From: Dryocola clanedunensis subsp. sulfonylureivorans
GTDB lineage: Bacteria; Pseudomonadota; Gammaproteobacteria; Enterobacterales; Enterobacteriaceae
Direction of reading: 5' to 3'
DNA: 64,000 bases
Assembly (NCBI RefSeq): GCF_016756775.1
Contig: NZ_JAERMU010000001.1
Span: 1-64,000 of the forward strand
Part shown: one piece after another, positions 6,861-64,000 of the stretch
Position numbering within the stretch: position 1 is the stretch's first letter
Layout: each line of letters starts with the position of its first letter
Notes under the pieces: generated by a model
The model's database searches: none
Told to the model about the DNA's origin: nothing
What the model saw: only the letters and a program-made list of their open reading frames with translations
Translations under genes and position numbers: made by a program

Positions 6861-6952
6861 CGGGATTCTCCTGATGTGGAGCCTGGAGGCTCTTCTGTGA
6901 AATCGACATTGCAGATTTGCTGGCACGGTATCGCGCGGATAAGGAGGCAGAA

Positions 6953-6966
6953 TTGATAACGATCAA
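6953..6966 (-). promoter_or_regulatory. FNR box of the narG promoter
   Basis: TTGATAACGATCAA is a perfect match to the FNR consensus TTGAT-N4-ATCAA. Its centre is 99 bases upstream of the narG start codon. If it sits at -41.5 as in E. coli, transcription starts near 6918, leaving a leader of about 58 bases. Confidence 0.9.
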
Positions 6967-7034
6967 CACACCAGGCGTTGTCTTACTGCCTGAAAAACGC
7001 GAATACCACCAAAGTAGCATGCGGAAATATTTTA

Positions 7035-7047
7035 TAATTCATTGATA
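7035..7047 (-). promoter_or_regulatory. Putative IHF site upstream of narG
   Basis: On the minus strand TATCAATGAATTA matches the IHF consensus WATCAANNNNTTR exactly. Relative to a start inferred from the FNR box it centres near -123, close to the known IHF position in E. coli narG. IHF bending there would bring distal NarL to the promoter. The placement is an inference from the motif. Confidence 0.65.
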
Positions 7048-7109
7048 AGTAATGGTTATTTTTGATATTTGATTTTGCAGAGGTACAGTTCAGGCTGCAG
7101 GAGGTATTA

Positions 7110-7116
7110 AGGGGTA
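7110..7116 (-). promoter_or_regulatory. Distal NarL heptamer of narG
   Basis: The minus strand reads TACCCCT, matching the NarL heptamer TACYYMT. It lies about 195 bases upstream of the inferred narG transcription start, which is the position of the high-affinity NarL site in E. coli. Confidence 0.65.
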
Positions 7117-7203
7117 GGTACTACCAGACTCACCCAGCTCCGGAGCCGCAATTGATGTTCAGAGGGAGATATTAGTATGTTGTAACTAAGTCATGTTACT
7201 CAT

Positions 7204-7228
7204 AAAAAAAGCGCGACCGAAGCCGCGC
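7204..7228 (-). terminator. Rho-independent terminator of narK
   Basis: On the minus strand a GCGCGGC/GTCGCGC stem with a TTCG loop is followed by seven T. It lies about 33 bases beyond the narK stop codon and separates narK from the narG regulatory region. Confidence 0.85.
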
Positions 7229-7260
7229 AGGGATAACCAAAATGGTCAATTTTTTAAAAC

Positions 7261-8652: not shown

Positions 8653-8712
8653 AAACACCTCAAATGTGTAAGAGTAATTGCCGCCACATTAGGGAGTATT
8701 GGTGAATCTAAA

Positions 8713-8726
8713 TTGATGTATATCAA
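8713..8726 (-). promoter_or_regulatory. FNR box of the narK promoter
   Basis: TTGATGTATATCAA is a perfect TTGAT-N4-ATCAA FNR site, centred about 67 bases upstream of the narK start codon. A -41.5 position would place the transcription start near 8678. Confidence 0.9.
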
Positions 8727-8821
8727 GGGATAATCGGACAGAATGGCGCTTATATTTTAACCATGATTCTTTGTGAGTAAGCCAAAATCACAAAAAAACT
8801 GTGGGTTTTCACTGCCCTGGA

Positions 8822-8896
8822 AGGGGTACAGCAGGGTTATAACCACCGTCATGCCACCAGTGGCAATTAAGGGGTAATCATTAGGGGGTATGGGTA
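8822..8896. promoter_or_regulatory. Cluster of NarL heptamers between narK and narX
   Basis: Four NarL-type heptamers are visible on the minus strand: TACCCCT (8822-8828), TACCCCT (8870-8876), TACCCCC (8884-8890) and TACCCAT (8890-8896). They lie about 145-220 bases upstream of the inferred narK start and within 60-130 bases of narX. They could activate narK and also touch the narXL promoter. Confidence 0.65.
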
Positions 8897-8951
8897 TACT
8901 CCGGGTGATGGCTGAAAATATGCCCACTCAAGCATGAAGGATACCCGATAA

Positions 8952-10748
8952 ATGTTGAAGCGCCTGCTTTCCCCTCTCACTCTGGTTAACCAGTTAGCGC
9001 TGATTGTGCTGCTGCTGGCAACGCTCGGCGTGGCGGGAATGAGCCTTGCCAGCTGGCTCGCGCAAGGGATCCAGGGCAACGCCCACGCCATCAACAAAGC
9101 CGGGTCGTTGCGGATGCAGAGCTACCGTCTGCTGACGGCAATTCCGTTAACCGCTAAAGACGCCCCGCTGCTGACCGAAATGGAGCAAACCGCCTGGAGC
9201 AATGACTTGCAGGATGCAGCGCGCCGTGACGGCCAGCAGGCGCAGCTCATGCAGCTGCAGGATTACTGGCGCAGCACCCTTGAACCCGCCATCAGCCGTG
9301 CGCAGAACGCAGGCCAGGTGACACCTCATGTTGCCCAGTTCGTTGGTCGTATCGATCAGCTGGTCAGCTCGTTCGACAAAACAACAGAGCTGCGGCTCCA
9401 CCGGGTGATCCTGCTGCAGCAAGGCATGGCTGCGCTGATGGGCTTACTGCTGGTCTTCACCGTTATCTGGCTGCGCAAACGCCTGTTACGTCCGTGGCGG
9501 CAGCTGCTGGCGATGGCATCCGCCATCGGCAAACGAGACTTTACCCACCGGGTCAGCGTCTCGGGCCGTAACGAAATGGCGACCCTCGGCATAGCGCTGA
9601 ACAGCATGTCTGCCGAACTGGCGGAAAGCTACTCCGTGCTGGAGCAGCGCGTACGTGAGAAAACCGCCGGGCTGGAGCAGAAAAATCGCATCCTGTCGTT
9701 TTTATACCAGGCGAACCGCCGCCTGCACTCCCAGGCTCCCCTTTGCCAGCGGCTTTCCCCTGTTTTAAGCGAGCTGCAGCACCTTACGCCGCTGCGGAAT
9801 ATTGAGCTGCGCGTGTACGAATACGAAGACGAAGAAAACTACGACGAATACACCTACCAGCCGGACAGCAGCTGTGAGGAGCAGGGTTGCCACCTTTGTC
9901 CTCGGGCCCCTGCGGCGGAACCTGCCGAAACGAATGCGGTCAAATGGCGGCTTACCGATAACCATATTCAGTACGGTCTGGTGCTCGCTCAGCTCCCCCA
10001 GGGCAGCAGTCTGACCGCCGATCAGCAACAGCTTATCGAAACGCTCATCGAGCAGCTGACCGCTACGCTTGCCGTAGAACGACAGCACGAACATCAGCAG
10101 CAGCTGGTGGTGATGGAAGAACGCGCCACCATTGCACGAGAATTACATGACTCCATCGCCCAGTCGCTCTCCTGCCTGAAAATGCAGGTCAGCTGTCTAC
10201 AAATGCAGGGAGCTGCGCTGCCGGACGAGATGCGTGAGCTGTTAAGTCAGATGCGTAACGAACTGAATACATCGTGGCGCCAGCTGCGCGAACTGCTGAC
10301 CACGTTCCGCCTGCAGCTCATTGAGCCTGGCCTGCGGCCTGCCCTCGAGGCAAGCTGTCAGGAGTTCAGCGAAAAACTCGGCTTTAACGTTGAGCTGAAC
10401 TATCAGCTGCCACCTCGTTTTGTGCCCTCTCACCAGGCCATTCACCTGGTGCAGATAGCGCGCGAAGCGCTGAACAACAGTTACAAACACGCACAGGCAA
10501 CGGCCTGTGGCGTCTGCGTCGAACACCTCAACAAGCAGGTAAAATTAACCGTATGGGATAACGGCTGCGGAATACCAGAGAACGGAGAACGCAGAAACCA
10601 TTACGGACTTATTATTATGCGAGACCGTGCGCAAAGCCTGCAAGGCGATTGCCAGATACGGGCTCGCGCTGGTGGCGGCACCGAAGTGGTCGTCAGTTTT
10701 ATGCCCGAAGCACATTTGTCTTCTGCCACAGGAGTAAGCGATGAGTAA
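8952..10748 (+). CDS. narX: Nitrate/nitrite sensor histidine kinase NarX
   Basis: This membrane sensor phosphorylates NarL when periplasmic nitrate is present. The 598-residue protein matches E. coli NarX in length. It shows a first transmembrane helix (about 14-37), a periplasmic domain starting with the P-box-like segment [16 protein letters not shown], a second helix (about 150-172), a HAMP region, a Cys-containing central module ([10 protein letters not shown]) and a HisKA_3/HATPase core. The phosphorylated His lies in [18 protein letters not shown], and the ATP-binding [10 protein letters not shown] is present near residue 536. It overlaps narL by eight bases. Confidence 0.96.
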
Positions 10749-11391
10749 CCCGGAAGCAGCAACTATCTTGCTGATTGATGATCACCCGATGCTAAGAACA
10801 GGCGTCAAACAGCTAATCAGCATGGCGCCTGAGCTGGCCGTTGTCGGCGAAGCCGGGAACGGGGCTCAGGGCGTTGAGCTTGCCGAAGCGCTCGACCCCG
10901 ACCTGATTCTGCTGGATCTGAACATGCCCGGCATGAACGGACTGGAAACCCTGGACTGCCTGCGCGAAAAACCGCTGTCGGGCCGTATCGTGGTGTTCAG
11001 CGTCTCCAATCACGAAGAAGATGTCGTGACCGCACTGAAACGCGGCGCCGATGGCTATCTGCTTAAAGACATGGAGCCTGAGGATTTACTGAAAGCCCTG
11101 CAGCAGGCGGCCGCAGGTGAGATGGTCCTCAGCGAAGCGTTAACGCCGGTGCTGGCGGCAAGCCTGCGGGCGAACCGCGCAACCTCAGACCGTGACGTGA
11201 ATCAGCTAACCCCGCGCGAGCGCGACATTCTCAAGCTGATCGCCCAGGGGCTGCCGAACAAAATGATTGCCCGCCGTCTGGATATCACCGAGAGTACGGT
11301 GAAAGTTCACGTCAAGCACCTGCTGAAAAAAATGAAGCTGAAATCCCGCGTCGAAGCGGCGGTCTGGGTGCATCAGGAACGTATTTTCTAA
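10741..11391 (+). CDS. narL: Nitrate/nitrite response regulator NarL
   Basis: NarL is a two-component regulator that activates narGHJI and narK and represses alternative anaerobic genes in response to nitrate. The 216-residue product has an N-terminal receiver domain with acidic pair Asp13-Asp14 and phospho-acceptor Asp59 ([10 protein letters not shown]). A C-terminal LuxR-type helix-turn-helix follows ([15 protein letters not shown]...[11 protein letters not shown]). It overlaps narX upstream. Its stop codon interlocks with the stop of the convergent ychO gene, leaving no room for a separate terminator. Confidence 0.97.
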
Positions 11392-51027: not shown

Positions 51028-52149
51028 TTATTTATTCATTCTTTGCAGCTGGATCTGATCGGCCTGTTTCGCCTGCTCCGCCAGCGCTTTAAACTGCGGC
51101 GGCGTGTAGAAATCTGCCGGCGCTTTCAATCCTTTCATATTATTGCCTTTATGAATTTGCAGCTCTCCGAGGCTGTTTAGCGGTACACCAGCTACCTCGG
51201 CGGGCATCATAATGCGATAGCGTTCAGCGCGCTCAAAAGGCACTTCGGTCGGCAGGCGGTTTTCACTCAGATCGTAATTGCGGTTCAGCACCAGGAACTT
51301 ATCCGGTACCCGGCGCTTGCTGTTCCACCAGTCGCCGTCCAGGTCGCGGAATTCCCTTTCGGTTTCTTCTTTGCTGACGGCCCCTAGCTGTATGAGCGCC
51401 GAATGTAGCGCTTTATCCATTGCGTGATTGTAGGCCTCCGTGGATCCTGCATGGCCCTGCAAAATAACGTTTATTGCCAGACGTGCGCCCAGCAAATTGG
51501 AGTACAGATCTTCCGGTGAGAAAGCGGATATCTCTTCAGAGAAGCCGGGCACGGACTGGAAGCCATACCATTGGGCAACTTCATGCCACTGCGCCATCTG
51601 GAAAGCGAGATGGCCCGCCAGCCAGGCGGCTAAAGTATAGCGATCCGCCATCGCGGCCGGAGGCGTAAAAGCGTGGAGCTGAATGCGGCGCAGGCCCAGT
51701 TCCTCGCTGAAGAAGATCCGCCAGTCCTGGCCAAGCCTTGAGTAGATGTGCGAGAAGAGATAAAGCGTGTTGTCCGCCGTGTCGCGCACGTGCGCAATAT
51801 CGATAAAGCCGCCGCGATGGGTGTATATCAGGCCACTTTTCTCTTTGCTTAAGCCAACGATATTTTTCACCGCCCCGAACGCACTGTCGTTATAGTGGTG
51901 TTCGCCAAGGGTGGAGGCCGTCAGGACGTTACCTATCTGGTAGACCGGAATGGGGACGCCGATTGCCCGGACGTGAAGGTCGTAGCCAAAAGCACAGCAG
52001 GGCCGCAAAGACTCCGGCGGGGTGAGATTCTCCACAACGGGCCAGACGCGTTTCGCCTGCTCTATGGGTAAAATATCGGTCGCTGGCGTCTGCGCGCCAT
52101 AACTTACAGATGACATACCAAGCAACAGTGTTAAAAGCCATAAACGCAT
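51028..52149 (-). CDS. DUF4056-like exported protein
   Basis: The 373-residue protein has a signal peptide (about 1-18, MRLWLLTLLLGMSSVSYG). Its sequence is like the uncharacterised DUF4056 family: the segment ESLRPCCAFGYDLHV (about 43-57) with paired Cys and the stretch GLIYTHRGGFIDIAHVRDTADN are typical as I recall them. The HRGGFIDIAHVRD and HLAFQMAQWHEVAQWYG parts are rich in His/Glu/Asp and could bind a metal, but this is inference. It is the last gene of a four-gene outer-membrane cluster and overlaps the preceding gene by one base (TAATG), after a GGAGG ribosome site. Function unknown. Confidence 0.7.
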   Translation of the reverse strand: MRLWLLTLLLGMSSVSYGAQTPATDILPIEQAKRVWPVVENLTPPESLRPCCAFGYDLHVRAIGVPIPVYQIGNVLTASTLGEHHYNDSAFGAVKNIVGLSKEKSGLIYTHRGGFIDIAHVRDTADNTLYLFSHIYSRLGQDWRIFFSEELGLRRIQLHAFTPPAAMADRYTLAAWLAGHLAFQMAQWHEVAQWYGFQSVPGFSEEISAFSPEDLYSNLLGARLAINVILQGHAGSTEAYNHAMDKALHSALIQLGAVSKEETEREFRDLDGDWWNSKRRVPDKFLVLNRNYDLSENRLPTEVPFERAERYRIMMPAEVAGVPLNSLGELQIHKGNNMKGLKAPADFYTPPQFKALAEQAKQADQIQLQRMNK

Positions 52150-53282
52150 TAAAATGCCTCCGCGACCTGGAAATAAAATCCGGCGCTCTCTTTCCCAAAT
52201 CCCAAATCGAGACGAATATTCATATCTGGTTTGACCTCAAAGCGATAACCCACACCCGCCGTTGGCAGCGGCGCATGGTCGGAAAGATCCTCTTCGCTAC
52301 CGCCTAAGGCCCCCATCCCTAGCCACAAAACATAGCCGTTTCGCCAGTCCAGCTTTTTGCGGTATTCCACCTGGGTGCTGATCACGTCTTTATCGCGGTA
52401 GCGGCCCTGGTAGTAACCCCGCATCCGGTTGTCGTCGCCTAATTCAGACAGCCGATCCCATGGCACATTCCCACGGGCAAAGCGTCCCCAAAGGTCGAAC
52501 GCCAGCACGTCCGCCTCGTTAAGAGGATGATAATAATTATATTGCAGCTGCAAAACGGTAAAGTGATTATCCGAGCCAAACGCCGGATCAAAGTCGCTGA
52601 ATTCCGCACTGAAAAACTGACCACGCCGCGGCCGGGTAATCACATCCCGCGAGTCATAGTTGAGGGTTGCGGTCACGCCTGAGCTTTTTGAATCTTTTGC
52701 CGCGTCATAGCGGGAGAAATTATCGTCAGGTCGGGTGTTTTCTATCTCGGTGGCATGCAGCGTTGAATAGTCCCAGCCAACCCCCACGTACAGATGATCG
52801 ATGACCTGACGCATTATCTGCGGGTGGATTTCAATCGCCTGGTCCGTGTATTTCTGTTCATTCCCCTGTGCCGCATCATAGCCAATGCCCCAGAATCCTG
52901 TGGGGACATTCGACAACGATCCATCGACAAACATGCGCCATTTGTCACCGCTGAAGAAGGTGTAGGACTTCATGCCCACGCCCAGCGCCCCGCTGGTGCT
53001 GACGAAACCGGTGAAAGAGATAGAGGAGTTCTGCGTAGTTTTATCTTTCGGATCGACGCGATAGACCCCGGCAATCGCCGTTCCCAGACCGAGCTTCAGC
53101 TCAGGGGTATAAAACGGTCCGGGCAGCACGCTCCAGTTGATGCCTTTGCTGGGATCGTACTGATTGTCCGCCCCCAGTTTGCCAAGAAAACCGTCAATCT
53201 CATCGCGAGTCATGCTGCAGGCATTTTTCGATACGGACAGCACGCTTAGCAAGCCGAGGAACAATACGCCATATTTGCTCAT
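52149..53282 (-). CDS. Short Omp85-type (BamA/TamA family) outer-membrane barrel
   Basis: The 377-residue protein has a signal peptide (about 1-23) and almost nothing but an Omp85 surface-antigen barrel. It has no room for POTRA domains (BamA has about 810 residues, TamA 577). The barrel begins near VLPGPFYTPELKLGLGTAIAG, contains the Omp85-type lid motif in NRMRGYYQGRYRDKD and ends with an aromatic residue (VAEAF), the outer-membrane assembly signal. Its start overlaps the previous stop (TGATG), and its stop overlaps the next start. Role unknown: it may be a translocation pore or a membrane-remodelling barrel. Confidence 0.8.
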   Translation of the reverse strand: MSKYGVLFLGLLSVLSVSKNACSMTRDEIDGFLGKLGADNQYDPSKGINWSVLPGPFYTPELKLGLGTAIAGVYRVDPKDKTTQNSSISFTGFVSTSGALGVGMKSYTFFSGDKWRMFVDGSLSNVPTGFWGIGYDAAQGNEQKYTDQAIEIHPQIMRQVIDHLYVGVGWDYSTLHATEIENTRPDDNFSRYDAAKDSKSSGVTATLNYDSRDVITRPRRGQFFSAEFSDFDPAFGSDNHFTVLQLQYNYYHPLNEADVLAFDLWGRFARGNVPWDRLSELGDDNRMRGYYQGRYRDKDVISTQVEYRKKLDWRNGYVLWLGMGALGGSEEDLSDHAPLPTAGVGYRFEVKPDMNIRLDLGFGKESAGFYFQVAEAF

Positions 53283-54259
53283 CAGAATCGGTATTCGCCC
53301 GCCATGAAGAAGCTGTTTCGCTCGTTAAAGCCAATCTCTGTCAGCACGTTAAAATTCTGCGTAATTTCATACTGCGCGCCTATCAACGTGTTCCATGGCG
53401 ACGTCAGATGCTGTTTAACATCAAACCGTCCCTGATCGTCCTTATTCACCGTGTTGATCAGCGGCTGAAGCTGTGCGGGCATATTGAGGTCAGACAGGCT
53501 GCCCCTGAACTCCTGCTGAACGTCCTGGTACATTGCGCCAACCCACAGGCTCAAATGCGACGGCCCGGAAATCCCCTTTAGCTCGAAGCGATAGCCCACG
53601 CGAGGTGAAACCGTCAGGGCGGAAATTTTACCGTCGAGGATATCGAAATCGGTGCGGGTGTAGTTGGTATCCACCAGGCCAAACCAGTTCTGGTATCCCC
53701 CGGCGAGGGTGAAGCCTGCGCCAAAGGTTTGCCCTTTGAAATCAAGTTTAAAATCAATATCCTGCAAATCACCGCTGCGGTTAAGGTTATGCACGGATGA
53801 AGCGATAACGCGGTCGATACCGGTGTAGCGGGACGGGTCGGCATCCACCGAAACGTTTGAAACGGACGATCCTTTGGTGTAGCCCATCAGCCCGTAGACG
53901 TTCAGGAAGGGAAAGACCCACATATCCAGACGCAGGTTTTCACTCTTGCTGCGTTCGCGAGTATTGCCGACGGCAATATCAAACATATCTGTTGGGATGG
54001 CGTGGGTGCCGAGCTTTAGCCCGGAGAATGTAATACTGTCAACGTCGACGTTCTGACGCATATTCATATAGCTGAGGTTGACGCCGAACGGCAGCGGAAT
54101 GGAATAACCCCGCGCCCGGGCTTCGTCTCCCCAGATGGGAAAAGTGCTGCTGTCAGCTGGCGTCCCCGTGTCCGCCGCAGCCAGTGCGTGTCCGGATAAC
54201 AACAGTAGCGGCAGCGCAAACATCCGGTTGTGTTGTTTACCCTTCATTGTTCTCTTCAT
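53282..54259 (-). CDS. Putative outer-membrane beta-barrel protein
   Basis: This 325-residue protein is of no recognised family. A signal peptide is visible (about 1-28, with MFALPLLLLSGHALA). The remainder alternates hydrophobic and polar residues as in barrels (LSLWVGAMYQDVQQEF, LTEIGFNERNSFFMAGEYRF) and ends in Phe, as outer-membrane proteins do. The strand turns are short on one side and long on the other. It lies between two Omp85-type barrel genes and overlaps the next start by one base. A Met at residue 13 could be an alternative start. Function unknown. Confidence 0.65.
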   Translation of the reverse strand: MKRTMKGKQHNRMFALPLLLLSGHALAAADTGTPADSSTFPIWGDEARARGYSIPLPFGVNLSYMNMRQNVDVDSITFSGLKLGTHAIPTDMFDIAVGNTRERSKSENLRLDMWVFPFLNVYGLMGYTKGSSVSNVSVDADPSRYTGIDRVIASSVHNLNRSGDLQDIDFKLDFKGQTFGAGFTLAGGYQNWFGLVDTNYTRTDFDILDGKISALTVSPRVGYRFELKGISGPSHLSLWVGAMYQDVQQEFRGSLSDLNMPAQLQPLINTVNKDDQGRFDVKQHLTSPWNTLIGAQYEITQNFNVLTEIGFNERNSFFMAGEYRF

Positions 54260-54348
54260 CCAAACCCTCTCGATACTGCGCCCGTGTGGACCAACAGCTC
54301 ATGCGTTTTTATTGATATTCGTGTTGCCGTCAAGACGGGAAATTCCTT

Positions 54349-55491
54349 TTACAGCCCCGCCCCAACGTTGAAGTAAACCGCCTGCTCATTGTCGCTGAAG
54401 GCGACATCGACGCCCGTGCGCAGACCAAACTTGCGGGCAATCAGATAACGGAACCCGCCGCCCCACGCCACTTCCGTTGAATCATATAGCTCATCGGCCT
54501 CTTTGCTTGCGCTCCCCGCGCCAACAAATCCCTGCAGGGTCCAGCGCGGCGTCATCTGCCATTCCAGCTGCGTTTGCACCGTGCTGACATAATCCCCCTG
54601 ATAGCGGTAGCGCGAGATACCCCGCAGATTGATATACGGGCGTGCCATCGGCGGTAAATGACCATCCTGGTTTGACAGCGACTGATAATCCCCTGCCAGC
54701 ACCAGCGTAAAATCATGACCGAGCGGCTGGAAATATTTGCCGTCAATCGACAGCTGGTTGTAACGGTAATCCCCACCGAGGAAGCTGGTGTAGAACTGAT
54801 ATTGCCCCGTCACCGACAGCCCGCTATGGGGATAAAAAAAGTTATCCGTCGTGTCGTACTGCACCATCAGCCCGAGGGCTGATGTCGTGCTGTTTTCACC
54901 CAGCACGCGCTGGAGCGCCCGATTGATAACTTTGTTATCGGCAGAAATTTCCATGTTGGCATAAAATTGTGAAGCACCCACAAAGAACGGGGTATCACCT
55001 ACCCGAAACAACAGCCTTTGCAGCCCGCCGTATCCCTTCGTCTGGGTGCTGACGCCTTTTCCCTCGCCGAACCCCAGCGTATCGCCAGAATAAATGTCGA
55101 GATTGACGTCCGCATACCCCATCGCCACCAGATAGCGGATGCTGTCGTCATTCCAGGTGTGGCGATGCCCGCCACCGACAAACCAGGTGCCGTTTTGGGT
55201 GGCTCCGCCGCCAAACGCCGTCATCGCGGGAGGAATCAGCCTGCCGTTCTGGCGATTTTTCGATCTTTCACTGTCCTCGGTATCATGCAGGAACAAGCCA
55301 AACAGCCCGCCGCCATACCCCACCGCCGGTTCGGTTATCACCACCGGGATCGGCAGAAAACCGTAGCGGTTATCAGTGAGATACTCACTCATATCCAGCA
55401 TGCCGTCCGACTTATCGATCATCCCGCTGGCACCGGCGGCCATCGGTAAACACAGCCCAACGGTCAGAAAACACAGCAGCCTCCCGATCAT
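54349..55491 (-). CDS. Short Omp85-type (BamA/TamA family) outer-membrane barrel
   Basis: This is the second POTRA-less Omp85 barrel of the cluster, 380 residues from the ATG at 55491. The signal peptide covers about 1-21 (MIGRLLCFLTVGLCLPMAAGA). The barrel starts near LPIPVVITEPAVGYGGGLFGLFLHD and has the lid motif region INLRGISRYRYQGDYV. It ends in Leu rather than Phe. An earlier in-frame start 16 codons upstream would add a charged leader before the signal, so it was not used. It is the first gene of the cluster, 89 bases ahead of the next. It is probably paralogous to the barrel at 52149-53282, although the two differ strongly. Confidence 0.8.
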   Translation of the reverse strand: MIGRLLCFLTVGLCLPMAAGASGMIDKSDGMLDMSEYLTDNRYGFLPIPVVITEPAVGYGGGLFGLFLHDTEDSERSKNRQNGRLIPPAMTAFGGGATQNGTWFVGGGHRHTWNDDSIRYLVAMGYADVNLDIYSGDTLGFGEGKGVSTQTKGYGGLQRLLFRVGDTPFFVGASQFYANMEISADNKVINRALQRVLGENSTTSALGLMVQYDTTDNFFYPHSGLSVTGQYQFYTSFLGGDYRYNQLSIDGKYFQPLGHDFTLVLAGDYQSLSNQDGHLPPMARPYINLRGISRYRYQGDYVSTVQTQLEWQMTPRWTLQGFVGAGSASKEADELYDSTEVAWGGGFRYLIARKFGLRTGVDVAFSDNEQAVYFNVGAGL

Positions 55492-55835
55492 AAGCCTCAC
55501 CCAGAAAAATGATAATTTTGTCTTATTTTTCAAACACACACAATGTTGATTGATGCTTTATTACTGAATTGAGCATAGACCAGCGTGAAACATATACAAG
55601 CAGCCTTGTCCCTAAGGCAAATACGGCCAAAGCGGATCAAAAGTGATACCGGCGTCGGCAAAATATCACCTTGTTATTTTTTTGTATTCAAAATGTGATT
55701 CAAACCGCAATTTTTGCTGCGATTTTATACAACGGGATGACTTCTTGTTATTCATGGCGCGACGCAAAATTAAAATGAAACACTGTGCCGCCATATGGAA
55801 CACAACAACAAAAGCCCCCTTCCGGAGAGCTATCA
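55492..55835. other. Divergent regulatory region, outer-membrane cluster / IclR gene
   Basis: About 340 bases between the divergent Omp85-type and IclR-type genes. It is A+T-rich, especially near 55665-55735, and should hold promoters for both directions. No clear operator, repeat or RNA gene was identified. A 79-codon frame running into the IclR gene was rejected. Confidence 0.45.
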
Positions 55836-56552
55836 ATGAGCAACAATTTGCAGTCGGCCGCCCTGGTGCTATCGGTACTTAATTACTTCACCCTGCAGAA
55901 AACACGCTGGGGCGTAAGGGAGCTGGCGCGTGAGATAGGCCGCAGCCCTTCGGTCGTGCAGCGGGCGTTGACCCTGCTCGAGGCAGAAGGCTATCTCCAC
56001 CAGGAGGAGGCAGGCCGAACTTACCAGCTTGGCTTTCGCTGTATCGAACTGGGGCATCTGGCCAATGAGACGCGGCAGTTTTCACAAATTGCTGCGCAGT
56101 GTCTTAAACCACTGGTTGAACAGAGTGGTGAAACGGTTTTTATCTACCGTCGCCGGGAGGATATATCCGTCTGTAGCTATATCCAGGAAAGCAGCCAGCA
56201 TATTCGCTTTACGACTACCGTCGGCGAGTCCTTATTTTTACATCAGGCTCCGTTCACCCAGGTCACGCTGGCGTTTATGAAACCGGAAGAGCGGCTTGAC
56301 TATTTATCCCGCCACCAGCTGCAGGCGGACGCTGCGCTACTTGAAACGCTGGAGCTCTTTGCGCAGCAGGGCTACGCCAGCTCCCATGAGGCCTGGCAGC
56401 CGCACACCCAGGGGCTGTCAGTACCGTTATTCAACGTGCAAAAAGAGGTCGCCGGTTCGCTGTGTATCGCGGCCTCTACCCTGCGTGACGATCTCATTGT
56501 TTATAAACCGTTGCTTATTCAGGCGGCAGTGAAGCTCAGCCCGGTACTTTAA
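55836..56552 (+). CDS. IclR-family transcriptional regulator
   Basis: This is a 238-residue regulator with a winged helix-turn-helix (about 5-65, VRELAREIGRSPSVVQRALTLLEAEGYL) and a C-terminal IclR effector domain (GETVFIYRRREDISVCSYIQES...GLSVPLFNVQKEVAGSLCIAA). The ATG at 55836 follows GGAG by eight bases. A start 17 codons earlier is open but has no ribosome site. It lies 49 bases before, and parallel to, the OPT-type transporter operon, which it probably controls. The effector is likely the transported compound or a breakdown product, by inference. Confidence 0.87.
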   Translation: MSNNLQSAALVLSVLNYFTLQKTRWGVRELAREIGRSPSVVQRALTLLEAEGYLHQEEAGRTYQLGFRCIELGHLANETRQFSQIAAQCLKPLVEQSGETVFIYRRREDISVCSYIQESSQHIRFTTTVGESLFLHQAPFTQVTLAFMKPEERLDYLSRHQLQADAALLETLELFAQQGYASSHEAWQPHTQGLSVPLFNVQKEVAGSLCIAASTLRDDLIVYKPLLIQAAVKLSPVL

Positions 56553-56601
56553 AAAACATAATAAAGACAACACAACATCCCTAAACAGACAGGTAAATTC
56601 T

Positions 56602-58239
56602 ATGCATCCACATGTCTCTCTGGAGTCGGCGGGCAACTCCCCTGCTATTTCTGTTTTCCGGCCAGCAATATTTCTGGTGATTGTCGCCCTGTCGTTTTTG
56701 GGGGCGATTATCGGTATCCAGATTATTGTCACCCTGGGTATCTCGGCTAACACCTCAATTATCGGCGCCGTACTGGCTATATTGCTCTCCCGTATCCCCG
56801 GTGAGATCTTTGCCAGCTTCCGCTTTATTGATGCCCAGAACCTGGCGCAAACGGCTATCTCTTCCGCCACCTTCGCCGCCGCTAACGGCCTGCTCATCTC
56901 AATTGGCGTGCCGTGGGTGCTGGGGATGCATGAACTTATCTGGCCGATGCTCGCGGGTGCGTCGCTGGCGTTGGTTATCGATGGCACCATCCTGTATGGC
57001 GTATTTAACACCCGTGCTTTCCCGGCCAATGCACCCTGGCCTGCGGGAGTTGCCACAGCGGAAACATTGTGGGCAGGTAATAAAGGCGGCAAGCGGCTGG
57101 GCCTGCTGCTGGTCGGCTTCGCCCTTGGCATTGGGGGAGCCGCCTTTGGCATTCCCATGGCGTCGGCCGGCATTGCTTTCATCGGCAGCATTTTTGCTCT
57201 GCTGATGTTCGCCGTCGGCCTGCTGGTCAGAGGGTTTTCCGAGTCCGGGCTGATTCCCTATAACCTCTATGAACACTATGTCCCACACGGCTTTATGATT
57301 GGTGCCGGGCTTGTTGCCCTGGTGCAGATTGCGCTGATCGTGATTCGCAAAAGACGCGACCTTAACGAAGAGAGCGGCCCCGAAAGCGAAGAGCTAAAGC
57401 AAAGCGCAAGCCGCCTGAAAAACACGTTGCTCAAGGGTGCCGTGTTCTATTTCATCACCGCCCTTCTGCTGACGCTTATCACGCAAATCTTCACCCAGAT
57501 GTCGCTGCCAATGCTGATTGGTTTTCTGCTCTTTGCTACTGCCGCCGCGCTAGTTCAGGAGATGGTCGTTGGCATGGCCGCCATGCACTCTGGCTGGTTC
57601 CCGGCTACTGCGGCGGCGCTGATTTCTCTGATGATCGGCCTGTTGCTCGGCTTCCCCGCACCGGCCCTTGCCGTGCTGGTTGGCTTTTGCACGGCCACTG
57701 GCCCGGCGTTTGCAGACATGGGCTTTGATTTAAAAACCGGGTTTATGGTTCGTGGCTACGGCAAAGATCCGCAGGCTGAAATTTACGGCCGCAAACAGCA
57801 GTATTTCGCCGCCATGACCGGATTTGCCTGCGCGATGATCGTCGTGGCGCTGGTTTATCCGTTCTATTTTTCGCAGGACAAAATCGTGCCCGCCTCCCGC
57901 CTCTACGCCGCCACCATCGAAGCTGGCCGCTCCACGGATATCGCCATGATGCTGATGCTCTGGGCTGTCCCCGGTGCGCTTTTGCAATGGATTGGCGGCG
58001 CACGTAACCAGATTGGCGTGCTCTTTTCCACCGGGCTGATGATCCACTATCCCATCGCTGGCTGGACGGTTCTTGCCGCCCTGGCCGTGCGCCTGGTGCT
58101 GGAGAAAATCTTCGCCGTCGGCAGCGACAGAATCTCCACGCTGGCCGGTGGCCTGATTGCAGGCGATGCGCTCAGCTCGGCGGCCACGGCACTGTTCCCG
58201 GCGGTAAAAGCGAAATTTCTGACACTCATTGGTCACTAA
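56602..58239 (+). CDS. OPT/YSL-type oligopeptide transporter family protein
   Basis: The inner-membrane carrier of 545 residues has about 14 hydrophobic segments and a charged loop near 255-275. The sequence GPAFADMGFDLKTGFMVRG (about 370-388) and the even spacing of Gly-rich helices fit bacterial members of the OPT (oligopeptide transporter) superfamily. A relative of the less-studied YhfT type is the alternative. OPT carriers take up peptides or metal-chelate complexes with protons. It is the first structural gene of a four-gene operon with a PLP enzyme, a dipeptidase and a DUF1177-like protein, which favours a peptide-like substrate. Confidence 0.7.
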   Translation: MHPHVSLESAGNSPAISVFRPAIFLVIVALSFLGAIIGIQIIVTLGISANTSIIGAVLAILLSRIPGEIFASFRFIDAQNLAQTAISSATFAAANGLLISIGVPWVLGMHELIWPMLAGASLALVIDGTILYGVFNTRAFPANAPWPAGVATAETLWAGNKGGKRLGLLLVGFALGIGGAAFGIPMASAGIAFIGSIFALLMFAVGLLVRGFSESGLIPYNLYEHYVPHGFMIGAGLVALVQIALIVIRKRRDLNEESGPESEELKQSASRLKNTLLKGAVFYFITALLLTLITQIFTQMSLPMLIGFLLFATAAALVQEMVVGMAAMHSGWFPATAAALISLMIGLLLGFPAPALAVLVGFCTATGPAFADMGFDLKTGFMVRGYGKDPQAEIYGRKQQYFAAMTGFACAMIVVALVYPFYFSQDKIVPASRLYAATIEAGRSTDIAMMLMLWAVPGALLQWIGGARNQIGVLFSTGLMIHYPIAGWTVLAALAVRLVLEKIFAVGSDRISTLAGGLIAGDALSSAATALFPAVKAKFLTLIGH

Positions 58240-58254
58240 CAGTAAGGACTGAAC

Positions 58255-59448
58255 ATGACAGACTGGGCAAAAATTTATCAGGACACCCGCGTATCGCAAA
58301 GCTACGCCTATTTTGATACCGGAGCCGCCGCTCCGCCTCCGGCACCGGTGATTGCGGCGGTTAACGACTATCTGAATAAAACGGCCGAGCTGGGGACCTA
58401 TCTCCCTGCCTTTCGCAAAGCGGTGTACCAGGGTATTGAGGTCACGCGTCAGAAGCTGGCCGCATTTATAAATGCCTCTCCCACGGAGATTGCCTTTACT
58501 CGTAACGGTACGGAAGCCATCTGCCTTGCGGCGCGCGGTATCGACTGGCAGGAAGGCGATGAAATCATCCTGCCCGACACCGAAATGCTCAGCAACGTCT
58601 CCATCTGGCACCTGTTAGCGAAAGAAAAAAAGATCCGTCTCGTTTCCCTGAAGGCAAGCGCGGAGGGGGTGATTGACCCCCAGCAGGTGCGCAATCTCAT
58701 CACGTCAAAAACGCGGATGATTAGCTTTGTTGCGCTTTCCAACGTCACGGGCGCGGTGCAATCCGTCGCGGAGATCTGCCAGATTGCCCGCCAGCAGGGT
58801 GTATTAAGCCACGTTAGCGCCTCACAGGCTCTGGGACTGCTGCGTGTCGACGTGCAGGCCTGGCAATGTGATTTTCTCTCTGCCTGCGGGCGTAAGGGGC
58901 TACGGGCTATTGAAGGCTCCGGCCTGCTTTACGTTCGCGAATCGCTGATTTCATCCCTCTCTCCTGCGCTGGTCGGGTGGTGGAACTCCAGTATGGATGA
59001 AGCGGGAAACGTGGTGCTCCCTGAAACCGCAAAGCGTTTTGAAGCCGGCTGCCCGAATGTGCCCGCCATTATCAGCATGGACAGCGCGCTTGATTACGCT
59101 AACGCTATCGGCATCAACGTCGTTGAGCAGCGCTGCCGCGAACTGACCCACTACGCGCTGGAAAAACTGGCGCAGATCCCCGGATTTGAAGCCTATGGCC
59201 CGGCAGACGCCTCCGGCAGGCTGGGAATCATTCCGTTCAATATCAGTGGTGTTAAACCCGACAAACTGACCGAATGGCTGGAAGCTCAGCACATCATTAT
59301 TGAATCAGGTCACTTTATGGCGAGCGCCATTCTGAAAAACTATCAGATAGAAAAAATGGGCCGTATTTCCCTGCACTACTTTAATCAGTTCTCTGAAATC
59401 GACCGTCTTGCCCTTTGCATTACGCAATTTATCAAGGAGTCAGTATGA
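58255..59448 (+). CDS. Class V aminotransferase-fold PLP enzyme with altered active site
   Basis: This 397-residue cytoplasmic protein is of the NifS/SufS/isopenicillin-epimerase fold. The PLP Lys should be Lys214 (SACGRKGLRAIEGSGLLYV). The segment usually reading VDGAQ reads VSASQ (187-191). The Asp that contacts the PLP ring nitrogen is therefore replaced by Ser188, while the Gln is kept. The His normally before the Lys is Arg. The N-terminal YFDTGAAAPPP and NGTEAICLAARG fit the fold. No cysteine-desulfurase Cys loop is evident. It may be a lyase, epimerase or other PLP enzyme acting on an amino-acid product of the imported compound. It overlaps pepE by four bases. Confidence 0.72.
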   Translation: MTDWAKIYQDTRVSQSYAYFDTGAAAPPPAPVIAAVNDYLNKTAELGTYLPAFRKAVYQGIEVTRQKLAAFINASPTEIAFTRNGTEAICLAARGIDWQEGDEIILPDTEMLSNVSIWHLLAKEKKIRLVSLKASAEGVIDPQQVRNLITSKTRMISFVALSNVTGAVQSVAEICQIARQQGVLSHVSASQALGLLRVDVQAWQCDFLSACGRKGLRAIEGSGLLYVRESLISSLSPALVGWWNSSMDEAGNVVLPETAKRFEAGCPNVPAIISMDSALDYANAIGINVVEQRCRELTHYALEKLAQIPGFEAYGPADASGRLGIIPFNISGVKPDKLTEWLEAQHIIIESGHFMASAILKNYQIEKMGRISLHYFNQFSEIDRLALCITQFIKESV

Positions 59449-60170
59449 AAAAAGCATTGTTAATGAGCAGCTCCCGCATGGGAAACCGTGGCTATCTCGA
59501 ACATGCAGATGAGCAGCTGCATACCCTGTTCCAGCAGCAGCCGCTGGAGGTGCTCTTCATCCCGTACGCCGCCGTGACCAACAGCTTTGATAAGTTTGAA
59601 GAGATTGTAAAACCGGCGTTCCAGCGTCTGGGTTACGGCCTGAAATCTATCCACCATTTCAGCGACCCGGTTGCCGCCGTTAAAAACGCGAAAGCAATTG
59701 CCGTGGGCGGGGGAAACACCTTTGCCCTGCTCAGCCGCCTGTATGACAGCAAAATTGTTGAGCTGATTTCACAGCGTGTGAACGGCGGTGAGCTGCCGTA
59801 CGTAGGCTGGAGCGCGGGCAGCAACGTCGCCACGCCGACCATCCGTACCACTAACGACATGCCTATAGTACAGCCGCCAAGCTTTAACGCGCTGCGCCTC
59901 GTCCCCTTCCAGATGAACCCTCATTTTATCTCCGGCAAGCCAGCAGGCCATAACGGTGAAAGTCGCGAAGAGCGTCTGAACGAATTTTTAACGTTCAATA
60001 AAGGAGAAGAGCTGCTGGCGCTGTATGAAGGCTCCGCCCTCTATGTAGAAGGTGATAAGGGGACAATCCTCGGTGAGAAAGAGGGTCTGTGGTTCCACGC
60101 GCCCGACCAGATTGAAACCATCGCCCCAAACCAAAGCTTCGCCTTAGAGACGATCAAAGGAGTGAAATAA
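59445..60170 (+). CDS. pepE: Dipeptidase E (alpha-aspartyl dipeptidase, peptidase S51)
   Basis: PepE splits dipeptides with N-terminal aspartate using a Ser nucleophile in an unusual glutamine-amidotransferase-like fold. From the ATG at 59445 the protein has 241 residues, slightly longer than enterobacterial PepE (229). The catalytic triad of the family is visible: Ser123 in GWSAGSN, Asp138 in TTNDMPI and His160 in MNPHF. E. coli pepE stands alone, whereas here it is inside an operon with an OPT-type transporter. This may be a second, specialised copy. It ends one base before the DUF1177-like gene. Confidence 0.88.
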   Translation: MKKALLMSSSRMGNRGYLEHADEQLHTLFQQQPLEVLFIPYAAVTNSFDKFEEIVKPAFQRLGYGLKSIHHFSDPVAAVKNAKAIAVGGGNTFALLSRLYDSKIVELISQRVNGGELPYVGWSAGSNVATPTIRTTNDMPIVQPPSFNALRLVPFQMNPHFISGKPAGHNGESREERLNEFLTFNKGEELLALYEGSALYVEGDKGTILGEKEGLWFHAPDQIETIAPNQSFALETIKGVK

Positions 60171-60171
60171 T

Positions 60172-61140
60172 ATGTCATCCAAATTTGTCAGCATGGTATA
60201 CGAGGCGCTGGATAATCCGGCGGTCAATGGGGCAACCGTCGTTGCGCTGCTGGAGAGCCTGGGCGCTGCGGAAGAATATGCCAGTATTACCTCCACAGCG
60301 GTAAACTACGAACCGCCGGAAGATACCACGCAGATCTGCGACTTCATTAAAGTCGTGATCAAAGGGAAAACGGGCAAGAAGTCAGGCGGCAGCTCGCCGA
60401 CCATGGGCATCATTGGCCGCCTGGGTGCGCAGCAGGCGCAGCCCGATCGTATGGGGATTGTTTCCGACGCGGACGGCTCCATCGTTGCGCTGGCCAGCGC
60501 GATGAAACTGCTGGATATGTCTGCCAAAGGCGCGCGTCTGGAAGGGGATGTGATTATTACGACCCATATCGCCACGCACGTTTCCATCACGCCGCACGAT
60601 CCGGTGGACTTTATGGGCATGCCGGTGTCATCCACCACGATGAACAAATACGAGGTGGATGACGACATGGATGCCATTCTTTCCGTGGATACCTCTAAAG
60701 GCAACAGCATCATCAAGAAGCGCGGCATAGCGCTCTCCGCGACGGCGAAAGAAGGTTACATTCTGCGCGTCGCGCCGGACCTGGTGAGCCTGATGGAGCT
60801 GGCAACCGGTAATCCGGCGGTCACCTTTCCTGTCACCACCCAGGACATCACGCCTTACGACAACGGCATTTACCACTTCAACTCCATTATGCAGCCGCAC
60901 GTTGCCACCACCGCCCCGGTTGTCGGCCTGGCGATTACGGCAAAATCCGTTGTTCCGGGATGCGATACAGGCGCGAGCTACGAAAGCGAACTGGTTGATG
61001 CCACGGTATTCAGCGTTGAGGTCGCTAAGCAGTTCACGTGGGGCAAAATTGCTTTCTACGATGAAACGGAGTACCAGAAGCTGCTCGATCTGTACGGCAG
61101 CATGGCGGTGCTACAGGGGGATGGCGCTGCGAATAAATAA
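60172..61140 (+). CDS. DUF1177-like protein
   Basis: The 322-residue soluble protein has no signal or membrane segment. Its composition and segments (SGGSSPTMGIIGRLGAQQAQPDRMG, DVIITTHIATHVSITPHDPVDFMGMPVSS, NGIYHFNSIMQPH, ISTAKSV-type VVPGCDTGASYE) fit my recollection of the uncharacterised DUF1177 family, which is often next to OPT transporters and AroM-like proteins. Conserved His and Asp residues in TTHIATHVSITPHDPVDF suggest a metal-dependent hydrolase, which is an inference. It is the last gene of the OPT operon, one base after pepE, followed by an inverted repeat. Confidence 0.65.
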   Translation: MSSKFVSMVYEALDNPAVNGATVVALLESLGAAEEYASITSTAVNYEPPEDTTQICDFIKVVIKGKTGKKSGGSSPTMGIIGRLGAQQAQPDRMGIVSDADGSIVALASAMKLLDMSAKGARLEGDVIITTHIATHVSITPHDPVDFMGMPVSSTTMNKYEVDDDMDAILSVDTSKGNSIIKKRGIALSATAKEGYILRVAPDLVSLMELATGNPAVTFPVTTQDITPYDNGIYHFNSIMQPHVATTAPVVGLAITAKSVVPGCDTGASYESELVDATVFSVEVAKQFTWGKIAFYDETEYQKLLDLYGSMAVLQGDGAANK

Positions 61141-61142
61141 TG

Positions 61143-61218
61143 GCGGATGACGCTACGCCTGTCTGCCCTACGTAAAAGGGTTCTCGTAGGGCAGATAAGC
61201 GACTGCGCTATCCACCTT
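61143..61218. repeat. REP/BIME-type inverted repeat
   Basis: Perfect 11-base arms TCTGCCCTACG and CGTAGGGCAGA (61162-61172, 61185-61195) are nested within outer REP-like sequence (GCGGATGACGCTACGC and GCGACTGCGCTATCC). It separates the convergent DUF1177-like and ddc genes and may work as a transcript end. Confidence 0.65.
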
Positions 61219-61226
61219 AATAAACG

Positions 61227-62699
61227 CTATGCCACCCTTACCTGCTGCGCTGTTTTCTCTACCAGCGCCAGCAGGGTTTTAATATCCCCCAACGTGACGG
61301 TTGGATTAAGCAGCGTCAGTTTCAGGCAGGTCACTCCGCCGTGCTCGGTAACCCCAACGTTGGCGCGGCCTGACTCCAGCAGCGCATCGCCAATTTTCTG
61401 ATTGAGCAATCCCACCTCTGCATCCTTCTGTGCTCCGCGGTCAAGCGGGCGATAGCGGAACAGCACGCTTGCCAGCTGCGGCTGCATCACCAGTTCAAGG
61501 GCGGCCTGCTCATGGACATAGTGCGCTACGTCCTGCGCAAGGCTTACCCCGTGGTCGATGATAGCCGCATACTGTTTCTGGCCTAATGCTTCCAGGCCCA
61601 TCCACAGCTTTAGCGCATCGAAGCGACGCGTGGTTTGTAACGACTTCGACACCAGGTTCGGCACGCCCTGCTCCTCATCAAATTCGGAGTTGAGGTACGC
61701 CGCCTGATAACGCATCAGCTCATAGTGGCGGGCTTCTTTTAACAGGAAGGCACCGCAGCTGATGGTCTGGAAGAACTGCTTGTGGAAGTCGAGCGTGATG
61801 GAGTCCACCAGCTCGATGCCGTCCAGATAGTCGCGATACTGCTCAGAAAGCAGCAGCGCACCGCCCCATGCCGCATCCACATGCACCCAGATATTGTTTT
61901 CGGCGGCCAGGCACGCGATATCGCGCAGGGGATCGATAGCGCCGGCATCCGTGGTGCCCGCCGTCGCCACAATGGCCATGACCTGCTCGCCGTTGGCCTT
62001 CGCCTGCTCCAGCTTCTGGGCAAGGTCGCTTACGTCCATGCGCGCGAAGCGGTCAGTTTTGACCAGCGTGACGGACTGGTAGCCCAGCCCCAGCAGCGCC
62101 ATATTCTTCTGCACGGAGAAGTGGGCGTGCTCAGAACAGAACACTTTTATCTTTTTCAGGTTGCCGGTCAGTCCGTCCTGCTGGACGGAGTGCCCCTGGC
62201 GCGCAAAGAAAGCGTCGCGCGCCAGCATCAGCCCCATCAGATTACTTTGGGTACCGCCGCTGGTGAAAACGCCGGCATCGCCCGGCTGATAGCCAACCAG
62301 GGTGCGCAACCACTCCACCAGCTTCATCTCAATAATGGTGGCCGACGGGCTTTGATCCCAGGAGTCCATGCTCTGGTTGGTGGCGTTAATCAGCACTTCT
62401 GCGGCCTGGCCAATCACCAGGCTCGGGCAATGCAAATGCGCCACGCACTGCGGGTGGTGCACCGACAGGCTGTCTTTTAAAAAGTATTCAACGGCGCGTT
62501 CGATGGCGGCCTGGTTGCCCAGGCCCTGCGGGTTAAAGTCCAGCCGGATACGTTCGCGCAGTTCGGCAACGCTCTTGCCCTGATACATTTCAGGCTGCTT
62601 AAGCCACTGCACAACGGCTTCGCTGCTTTGTGCGATAGCCCGCTGATAGGCCTCAATGCTCTGCAGCGAGGAGGACAGAATTGGGTTTCCCTCAGACAT
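61227..62699 (-). CDS. ddc: L-2,4-diaminobutyrate decarboxylase
   Basis: Ddc is a PLP enzyme of the group II decarboxylases that converts L-2,4-diaminobutyrate to 1,3-diaminopropane and CO2. The 490-residue protein shows FTSGGTQSNLMGLMLARD, the PLP-contacting VHVDAAWGGALLLS and the PLP Lys in SITLDFHKQFFQ. It closely follows the Acinetobacter/Enterobacter Ddc type. The start overlaps the stop of dat by one base (TAATG), so the two steps of diaminopropane synthesis are coupled. It is convergent with the peptide-type operon. Confidence 0.93.
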   Translation of the reverse strand: MSEGNPILSSSLQSIEAYQRAIAQSSEAVVQWLKQPEMYQGKSVAELRERIRLDFNPQGLGNQAAIERAVEYFLKDSLSVHHPQCVAHLHCPSLVIGQAAEVLINATNQSMDSWDQSPSATIIEMKLVEWLRTLVGYQPGDAGVFTSGGTQSNLMGLMLARDAFFARQGHSVQQDGLTGNLKKIKVFCSEHAHFSVQKNMALLGLGYQSVTLVKTDRFARMDVSDLAQKLEQAKANGEQVMAIVATAGTTDAGAIDPLRDIACLAAENNIWVHVDAAWGGALLLSEQYRDYLDGIELVDSITLDFHKQFFQTISCGAFLLKEARHYELMRYQAAYLNSEFDEEQGVPNLVSKSLQTTRRFDALKLWMGLEALGQKQYAAIIDHGVSLAQDVAHYVHEQAALELVMQPQLASVLFRYRPLDRGAQKDAEVGLLNQKIGDALLESGRANVGVTEHGGVTCLKLTLLNPTVTLGDIKTLLALVEKTAQQVRVA

Positions 62700-64000
62700 T
62701 ACGCGTACTCCATGCTTACAGACTTCACGCCCGCGCCGACCAGCGCCTGCTCAAATTTGCTGAGGAAAATTCCCAGCTCTTCATGGGTAATGAGCAAGGA
62801 CGGCAGCAGACGCAGCACGCTACCGTGACGGCCGCCGCGCTCCAGAATCAGCCCGGCTTCAAAGCATTTTTTCTGCAACAGCGCTGAAAGCTCACCATCT
62901 GCCGGATAACAGCCCATATGATCCTGCGGCTCATTCGGCTTAACGATTTCAATACCAATCATTAAGCCCAGGCCACGTACCTGCCCGATAACCGGATAGC
63001 GCAGCTGGAGTTCACCAAGTTTCCCCTTCAGCCATTCGCCCTGCGCCGCGACCTTGCTGGCAACGTCGTTATCTTTCAGCAGCTGGAGCGTTTTAAGCCC
63101 GGTCGCCATTGCCAGCTGGTTGCCGCGGAATGTCCCGGTGTGGTGGCCCGGCTCCCAGGCGTCGAACGTCTTCTTGATGCCCAGTACCGCCAGCGGCAAA
63201 CCTCCCCCCACGGCCTTGGACATCACGATAATATCTGGCTCAATGCCCGCGTGTTCGAAGGCAAAGAATTTGCCCGTACGCGCGAAGCCAGCCTGCACCT
63301 CATCCAGAATCAACAGGATGCCGTGCTCCTGAGTCACCTTGCGGATGCGTTGTAACCATTCGACCGGTGCCGGGTTGACGCCCCCCTCTCCCTGCACCGC
63401 TTCCAGGATCACCGCCGCAGGTTTGCGCACGCCGCTTTCAACGTCGTTTATCAGGTTTTCGAAATAGTAAGTCAGCGCTTTCACGCCAGCCTCACCGCCA
63501 ATGCCCAGCGGACAACGGTACTGGTGCGGATAGGGCATGAACTGTACTTCCGGCATCATGCCGTTGATAGCTTCTTTTGGTGACAGGTTGCCGGTGACGG
63601 ACAGCGCGCCGTGCGTCATGCCGTGGTAAGCGCCAGAGAAGCTAATAATCCCGCTTCTGCCGGTGACTTTTTTCGCGAGTTTTAAAGCCGCTTCTACCGC
63701 ATCCGCGCCGCTTGGGCCGGTGAACTGCAGGCAGTACTCTTTCCCCTGGCCGGGTAATAAAGAGAGTAAGTAGGCGGAAAACTGGTCTTTCAGGGGGGTA
63801 GTCAGGTCCAGTGTATGTAACGGCAAGCCGCTGGTAAGGACATTTTGGATGCTTTGCAGTACGTCAGGGTGATTGTGGCCCAGCGCCAGCGTTCCCGCGC
63901 CGGCCAGACAGTCAAGATAGTGATTGTTCTCAACGTCGGTTATCCACACGCCTTCGGCTTTTGCTATAGCCAGCGGCAGCTTACGCGGATAACTCCTGAC
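62699..64000 (-). CDS. dat: L-2,4-diaminobutyrate:2-oxoglutarate aminotransferase (5' end outside window)
   Basis: Dat makes L-2,4-diaminobutyrate from aspartate semialdehyde and glutamate. The gene runs off the right edge. The frame is open without a stop to base 64000, reading [22 protein letters not shown] before the segment [19 protein letters not shown], so the GTG at 63949 is not the true start. It is a class III aminotransferase with [23 protein letters not shown] and the PLP Lys in [16 protein letters not shown]. About 433 codons are inside the window; roughly 25-30 N-terminal residues are missing. It is coupled to ddc. Confidence 0.92.

Follow-up and report, generated by a model that had tools for sequence, protein, structure and literature searches.

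Which compound would a bacterium take up and degrade with an operon that joins a transporter, a dipeptidase, a pyridoxal phosphate (PLP)-type protein and a protein of the DUF1177 family behind a regulator of the IclR family? This question is raised by a five-gene locus in a 64,000-nucleotide stretch of DNA (hereafter the window) from Dryocola clanedunensis subsp. sulfonylureivorans, where the genes stand in the order IclR regulator, OPT-family transporter, class V PLP protein with the fold of SufS, PepE and DUF1177 (Table 1). Reading the substrate from the gene content, we tentatively propose a horizontally spread, substrate-controlled catabolic operon for the import and hydrolysis of an Asp-X compound, a cyclic dipeptide of the cyclo(Asp-X) type being the most likely single candidate. 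This combination of genes and its two uncharacterised enzymes are unfamiliar; the general kind of operon is familiar.

Conserved neighbourhood of DUF1177

A scan of named genomes returned at least 560 DUF1177 relatives, and the best 80 were kept as loci; they are the top ones by similarity to the query and not a random draw. Neighbours were counted from the homology map as genes on the DUF1177 strand lying no more than 6.5 kb away from that gene, the counts of oxidase, EamA and ABC permease genes being obtained by tblastn, and family names were taken from one representative each. Two of the tests set by the first-pass annotation of the locus, a conserved neighbourhood elsewhere and membership of the transporter in the OPT family, came out in its favour: an OPT gene lies near DUF1177 in 61/80 loci, OPT, PLP and PepE genes accompany it together in 17/80, with a same-strand IclR gene in 14 of these 17, and the window transporter scores above the cut-off of the OPT model (Table 1). 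These 17 PLP-type loci span Enterobacterales, Aeromonadaceae, Burkholderiales and Actinomycetota. Such a recurrence of four genes over two phyla, together with the detection of the PLP subfamily in 2 of the 394 genomes sampled from the order (threshold E<=1e-100, with up to 4 candidates scored in each genome), both times inside a DUF1177 operon, makes it hardly credible that the genes are fortuitous neighbours devoid of a joint function.

Several layouts were observed: (i) IclR-OPT-PLP-PepE-DUF1177 as in the window, to which a porin gene is added in 11 Burkholderiales loci (11/80 overall); (ii) IclR-OPT-DUF1177-AroM, with PepE and a racemase coming next in some of these loci; and (iii) in Bacillota, PucR-racemase-OPT-DUF917-DUF1177-AroM-M29. 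The three actinobacterial PLP loci are arranged as PLP-PepE-DUF1177-OPT, and a haloarchaeal plasmid carries DUF917-DUF1177-AroM-aminopeptidase with an ABC transporter. DUF917 was counted in 25/80 loci and EamA in 8/80. An NCS1 permease is present in 7/80 loci, 6 of them without OPT, and a peptide/nickel-type ABC permease in 8/80, 7 of them without OPT, the eighth (L051, 27% identity) having it.

The PLP gene (17/80 loci) and AroM (51/80, all among the 63 loci outside the PLP-type set) never occur together within 6.5 kb, and one or the other is present in 68/80 loci. Likewise, PepE and an M29-like aminopeptidase are each found in 26/80 loci and never together. In the tree of the 80 DUF1177 proteins (alignment of the window protein and 79/80 loci, L016 being left out), the 17 PLP rows and one Xenorhabdus row are separated from the other 62 with a branch support of 100/100, which indicates at the sequence level that the PLP variant is a separate DUF1177 line. 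Because this is one deep split, the exclusion of AroM and PLP amounts to about a single event rather than many, and the PepE/M29 exclusion follows the tree in the same way. The Xenorhabdus row (L012, X. beddingii) has, of the operon set, only PepE and DUF1177 in its 21 kb locus. In one AroM locus (L043) a PLP homologue begins close to the locus end, beyond the 6.5 kb limit, and a Bacillota plasmid (L094) carries DUF1177 and a PLP homologue without AroM.

This pattern bears on the idea of a modified or stereo-altered aspartyl compound (D-Asp, isoAsp or an Asp hydantoin), from which the PLP protein or AroM would, as an epimerase, make the L-Asp-X needed by PepE. The alternation of AroM and PLP is in agreement with it, as are the Asp/Glu racemase gene found in 28/80 loci and the NCS1 permeases and HyuA-type proteins of some loci. 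Since the alternation counts as about one event, and no epimerase was seen among characterised relatives of the PLP protein, we regard this idea, which overlaps with the explanation that we favour, as unlikely.

Two other arrangements were noticed. In seven Bacillota loci (L026, L032, L034, L039, L044, L048 and L094) a second set adjoins, composed of an NCS1 permease, a distant DUF917 protein and a HyuA-type hydantoinase/oxoprolinase. In three Streptomyces loci (L084, L086 and L087), an NCS1 permease and an M20 peptidase accompany DUF1177, IclR and PepE being divergent, which is another transporter and peptidase solution.

The PLP protein

The predicted model of the PLP protein (pLDDT 88.9) matches SufS by Foldseek with an E value of 1.6e-39 and a TM-score of 0.90, and SufS mutants (H123A, R359A, C364A and H121A) are among the PDB titles of its matches. 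The fold and the PLP-binding lysine (K214) are common to both proteins, whereas M111, E350 and M355 of the window protein stand at the places of SufS His123, Arg359 and Cys364, and S188 replaces the Asp that usually binds PLP. In SufS, Arg359 binds the substrate carboxylate, Cys364 is the catalytic residue, His123 lies over the cofactor, and the Asp contacts the PLP nitrogen. In an alignment of 18 sequences (the window, 16/17 PLP loci and L094; L021 was left out, its match being in two pieces), Met355 and Glu350 occupy the Cys364 and Arg359 places in 18/18, the His123 place is Met in 16/18, and the Asp place is Ser, Asn or Cys in 16/18, Asp being kept in 2/18. Moreover, the residues that took over, Glu350, Phe354 and Met355, do not vary, and this conservation points to a new function rather than to decay.

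A cysteine desulfurase was considered for this gene and rejected, as the SufS Cys, Arg and His are missing; the score with the SufS model TIGR01979 is 260.4 bits, below its curated cut-off of 475.1. Besides this protein, the genome of the window encodes three others of class V (26-31% identity). Because the same three residues are replaced, desulfurase-type amino-acid chemistry is unlikely, and the earlier view that the class V enzyme processes the amino acid released by the operon is not supported in that form. The loss of the carboxylate-binding Arg would rather suit a substrate with an amide-bound carboxyl group, i.e. a peptide.

PepE and the transporter

The window PepE scores 300.9 bits with the NCBIfam model of dipeptidase PepE (cut-off 156), and it is the only S51 match in its genome. 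It has in common with the S51 structures 1fy2/6a4r (Salmonella) and 7c9b (Xenopus) the Ser-His-Glu triad and the surrounding motifs, and differs by its place in a transporter operon. The triad S123-H160-E195, which is present in 32/32 sequences (window and 31 homologues), corresponds to Ser120-His157-Glu192 of PepE as given in the available text of PMC9239234. Since this triad is fully kept, the last product to be handled is, as judged from the protein sequence, most likely an Asp-X dipeptide. The dedicated Asp-X-type substrate suggested in the first-pass annotation fits with this full triad, with the lack of a second S51 protein in the genome, with the OPT membership of the transporter and with the conserved neighbourhood.

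The same two proteins bring up the uptake of a metal chelate or the degradation of a peptidyl antibiotic. The OPT family includes chelate carriers, and the ABC parts that replace OPT in some sister loci match nickel and opine models besides peptide models; conversely, none of the five operon proteins matches a metal-related family in Pfam or NCBIfam. As to antibiotics, the available text of PMC9239234 reports that some S51 enzymes confer resistance to microcin C, that PepE of Escherichia coli gives no such protection, and that the clade of protective enzymes has Asp as third triad residue, where the window PepE has Glu. We thus consider a chelate or antibiotic function improbable.

The DUF1177 protein

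No solved structure of DUF1177 was found by sequence search of the PDB, the best matches (E values 0.1 and 0.06) being chance-like, and no paper was found in the literature on the bacterial family. The available text of PMC4738358 uses the name DUF1177 for plant E3 ligases, which look like a different family. The predicted model (pLDDT 90, pTM 0.92) gave 211 PDB matches at E<=0.001 with Foldseek, the best being a Vibrio M28 aminopeptidase (E 6e-8, probability 1.00), followed, among the 50 matches listed, by M17 enzymes and DapE; a zinc-aminopeptidase-like fold (M28/M17/M20) is thus predicted. Six residues, R83, D99, D101, H132, D173 and H235, are invariant in 86/86 sequences. Taking the positions of the M28 ligands and of the catalytic Glu as a guide, D99/D101, H132, D173 and H235 fall at ligand places by secondary-structure order and not by superposition. 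With the M28 zinc aminopeptidases, DUF1177 would therefore share the predicted fold and the order of D99, H132, D173 and H235 along the strands.

These data can also be read in terms of ordinary linear Asp-containing oligopeptides, which OPT would import, DUF1177 would trim as an aminopeptidase to Asp-X, and PepE would finish. The fold matches are aminopeptidases and, according to the available text of PMC9239234, PepE acts on linear dipeptides; this is the strongest competitor. On the other hand, it leaves unexplained the racemase-like AroM, Asp/Glu racemase, hydantoinase-like DUF917 and oxidase neighbours of the sister operons as well as the narrow spread of DUF1177 (6/394 genomes), and we judge it rather doubtful.

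Link to cyclodipeptide oxidases

Homologues of both subunits of cyclodipeptide oxidase, AlbA and AlbB, are located within 6.5 kb of DUF1177 in 5/80 loci, all from Bacillota, where they are annotated as a nitroreductase and a protein of family DUF6092. For the pair of L029, AlbA (1.2e-22) and AlbB (1.4e-4) are among the best PDB matches, with the related entry 9exv ranking slightly ahead. A search of 20 genomes found the DUF6092 gene in those five only, once each and inside the DUF1177 locus, and a sample of 299 genomes of the order had it in two, one of which is the centre genome. The other (L132, genome G836) has an oxidase A homologue beside an oxidase B whose match is in two pieces, and its retrieved 19.9 kb contain no DUF1177, OPT or AroM.

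As far as the available text of PMC11055893 (2024) goes, most oxidase clusters have no cyclodipeptide synthase, and the families over-represented in them are hydantoin racemase, DUF917, AroM, OPT, EamA and peptidases. The sister DUF1177 loci share with these clusters OPT, AroM, DUF917, an Asp/Glu/hydantoin racemase, EamA and peptidases, whereas the window operon has none of the oxidase, AroM and DUF917 genes and has instead PepE and the SufS-fold PLP protein. The description of the operon as undescribed consequently holds in part: similar clusters of OPT, AroM, DUF917, racemase and peptidase genes have been published, but the main text of that paper does not mention DUF1177. Our literature searches found no cluster of this kind among cyclic-dipeptide catabolic genes, and nothing relevant on PepE/OPT/IclR operons.

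One argument for considering a cyclic dipeptide is that an enzyme opening the ring of cyclo(Asp-X) would leave a linear product of the type cleaved by PepE. In the available text of PMC3852281 (2013), cyclo(Gly-Leu) is degraded by a ring hydrolase and then a dipeptidase, cyclo(Asp-Phe) and cyclo(Asp-Asp) are degraded by cells of Paenibacillus and Streptomyces, the whole-cell degradation of cyclo(Asp-Phe) is inducible in one strain, diketopiperazines resisted all 15 peptidases tested, and the enzymes converting them into linear dipeptides are called unknown as of 2013. In our scan of named genomes, DUF1177 was found in species of Paenibacillus and Streptomyces other than the known degraders.

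Several observations weigh against a cyclic-dipeptide operon with a DUF1177 hydrolase. Neither the window nor any PLP-type locus (n=17) gave an AlbAB homologue by tblastn, so that the link to cyclic dipeptides comes from the sister operons, and the window operon is also devoid of DUF917 and AroM. The second oxidase-bearing genome among the 299 has no DUF1177 within about 10 kb. The ABC permeases replacing OPT match nickel, opine and peptide models, all nickel and peptide matches being below cut-off, and they do not single out peptides since nickel models match too. As for DUF1177, its TM-scores to the fold matches are only about 0.5, Arg83 and Thr131 stand where M28 has its first metal-binding His and its catalytic Glu, and there is no reliable sequence-profile match: hhalign comparisons with small self-made M28/M20 alignments gave probabilities of 0.1-0.6% in 11/12 runs. 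In the twelfth run (one setting, mixed M28 alignment) the probability reached 99.1%, over 34 columns with 9% identity, a value that we take as an artefact because it is gone with another column rule and in both subsets.

Proposed function

Our favoured explanation, import and hydrolysis of an Asp-X compound, gives each of the five proteins a role: (i) the IclR regulator would sense the compound or one of its products; (ii) the OPT transporter would import an aspartate-containing compound of dipeptide type that is beyond the reach of ordinary peptidases, cyclo(Asp-X) diketopiperazine being the likeliest candidate; (iii) the PLP protein would most likely invert or otherwise condition a residue of the peptide, rather than desulfurise cysteine; (iv) DUF1177, predicted to be metallohydrolase-like, would open or hydrolyse the compound to linear Asp-X; and (v) PepE would cut Asp-X into Asp and X, the known activity of its family. 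The conditioning role is suggested for the PLP protein because it fills the slot of AroM in the sister operons.

Distribution and mobility

DUF1177 was detected, the genome of the window being counted each time, in 1/6 genomes of the genus, in 6/394 genomes of the order sample above cut-off (7 at E<=0.001) and in 3/398 genomes of the phylum sample. Among the named control genomes 2/14 have it, both archaea, and it is present in 7 of 72,556 plasmid records, one being a conjugative Klebsiella plasmid. Genome G004, of the same genus, aligns with both flanks (51029-55600 and 61098-62962) but has just about 200 bases separating them; the operon is missing there from an otherwise shared site. In three other relatives having the downstream gene, the upstream flank did not align. 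Owing to this patchy distribution and to the empty site in G004, the operon looks like an accessory, horizontally moving one.

The Klebsiella pneumoniae conjugative plasmid (L091) carries at 5559-10966 an IclR-OPT-DUF1177-AroM-PepE-racemase set flanked by insertion-sequence genes, and is a possible vehicle for the spread of the AroM-type operon. A Zobellella genome (G274) has two DUF1177 copies (L006 and L008/L037), one without other operon families and one in a PLP-PepE-DUF1177 operon that a transposase gene follows.

Organisation of the operon and its flanks

The analysis of open reading frames, families and repeats bore out the gene structure given by the first-pass annotation, i.e. five co-directional genes between a divergent flank and a REP-type repeat. 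From the first gene to the fifth, the first two junctions are gaps of 49 and 15 bases, the third is an overlap of 4 bases (ATGA), and the fourth is a gap of a single base. The arms of the repeat are 17 nt long and 88% complementary.

Table 1. Location of the operon genes and of the adjoining features in the window.
Feature	Position	Strand	Basis
Divergent outer-membrane-type gene, upstream	54349-55539	-	Pfam search
Intergenic region from the divergent outer-membrane-type gene to IclR; presumed control region	55540-55835	.	Open reading frame map
IclR-family regulator	55836-56552	+	PF01614 (IclR_C) 44.7 bits, PF09339 34.6 bits
OPT-family transporter	56602-58239	+	PF03169 57.9 bits, cut-off 25.8
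Class V (SufS-fold) PLP protein	58255-59448	+	Aminotran_5 279.8 bits
PepE, alpha-aspartyl dipeptidase (S51)	59445-60170	+	Peptidase_S51 205.1 bits; NCBIfam PepE
DUF1177 (PF06675)	60172-61140	+	397.0 bits, cut-off 25
REP-like inverted repeat 3' of the operon	61156-61201	.	Arms 61156-61172 and 61185-61201

The IclR protein scores below the cut-off of every NCBIfam model that it matched (n=8). A promoter scan gave 5 sites versus 3.5 +/- 1.9 in shuffles, with no sigma-70-like site on the + strand upstream of IclR. The operon region has no match in Rfam at gathering score, and its DNA no relative in E. coli by megablast.

Upstream, a row of co-directional outer-membrane-type genes on the - strand (51028-55539) comprises a DUF4056 gene, two Omp85-type barrels and one beta-barrel match below cut-off, and aligns with genome G004. 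Downstream, also on the - strand (61227-63949), relatives of two enzymes are encoded, L-2,4-diaminobutyrate decarboxylase, with a score under the curated cut-off, and diaminobutyrate aminotransferase, with a score over it; the reading frame of the latter starts at profile position 50, which probably places its true start further upstream, close to the window end or past it.

Implications

In the strongest form of this reading, which appears unlikely, DUF1177 would be the first of a new type of hydrolase for cyclic dipeptides, in which a metallo-aminopeptidase fold with Arg in place of one metal position opens cyclo(Asp-X), and the PLP protein would be a new SufS-fold enzyme for peptides instead of free amino acids. 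If true, the operon would constitute a complete route of import, ring opening and dipeptide splitting. The operon reading, if true, would supply the first function for DUF1177, and the PLP protein would become a described SufS-fold enzyme that gave up the desulfurase active site. Cyclo(Asp-Phe), for which degrading cells have been described, is the bitter cyclisation product of aspartame; this type of operon offers a candidate enzyme, transporter and regulator.

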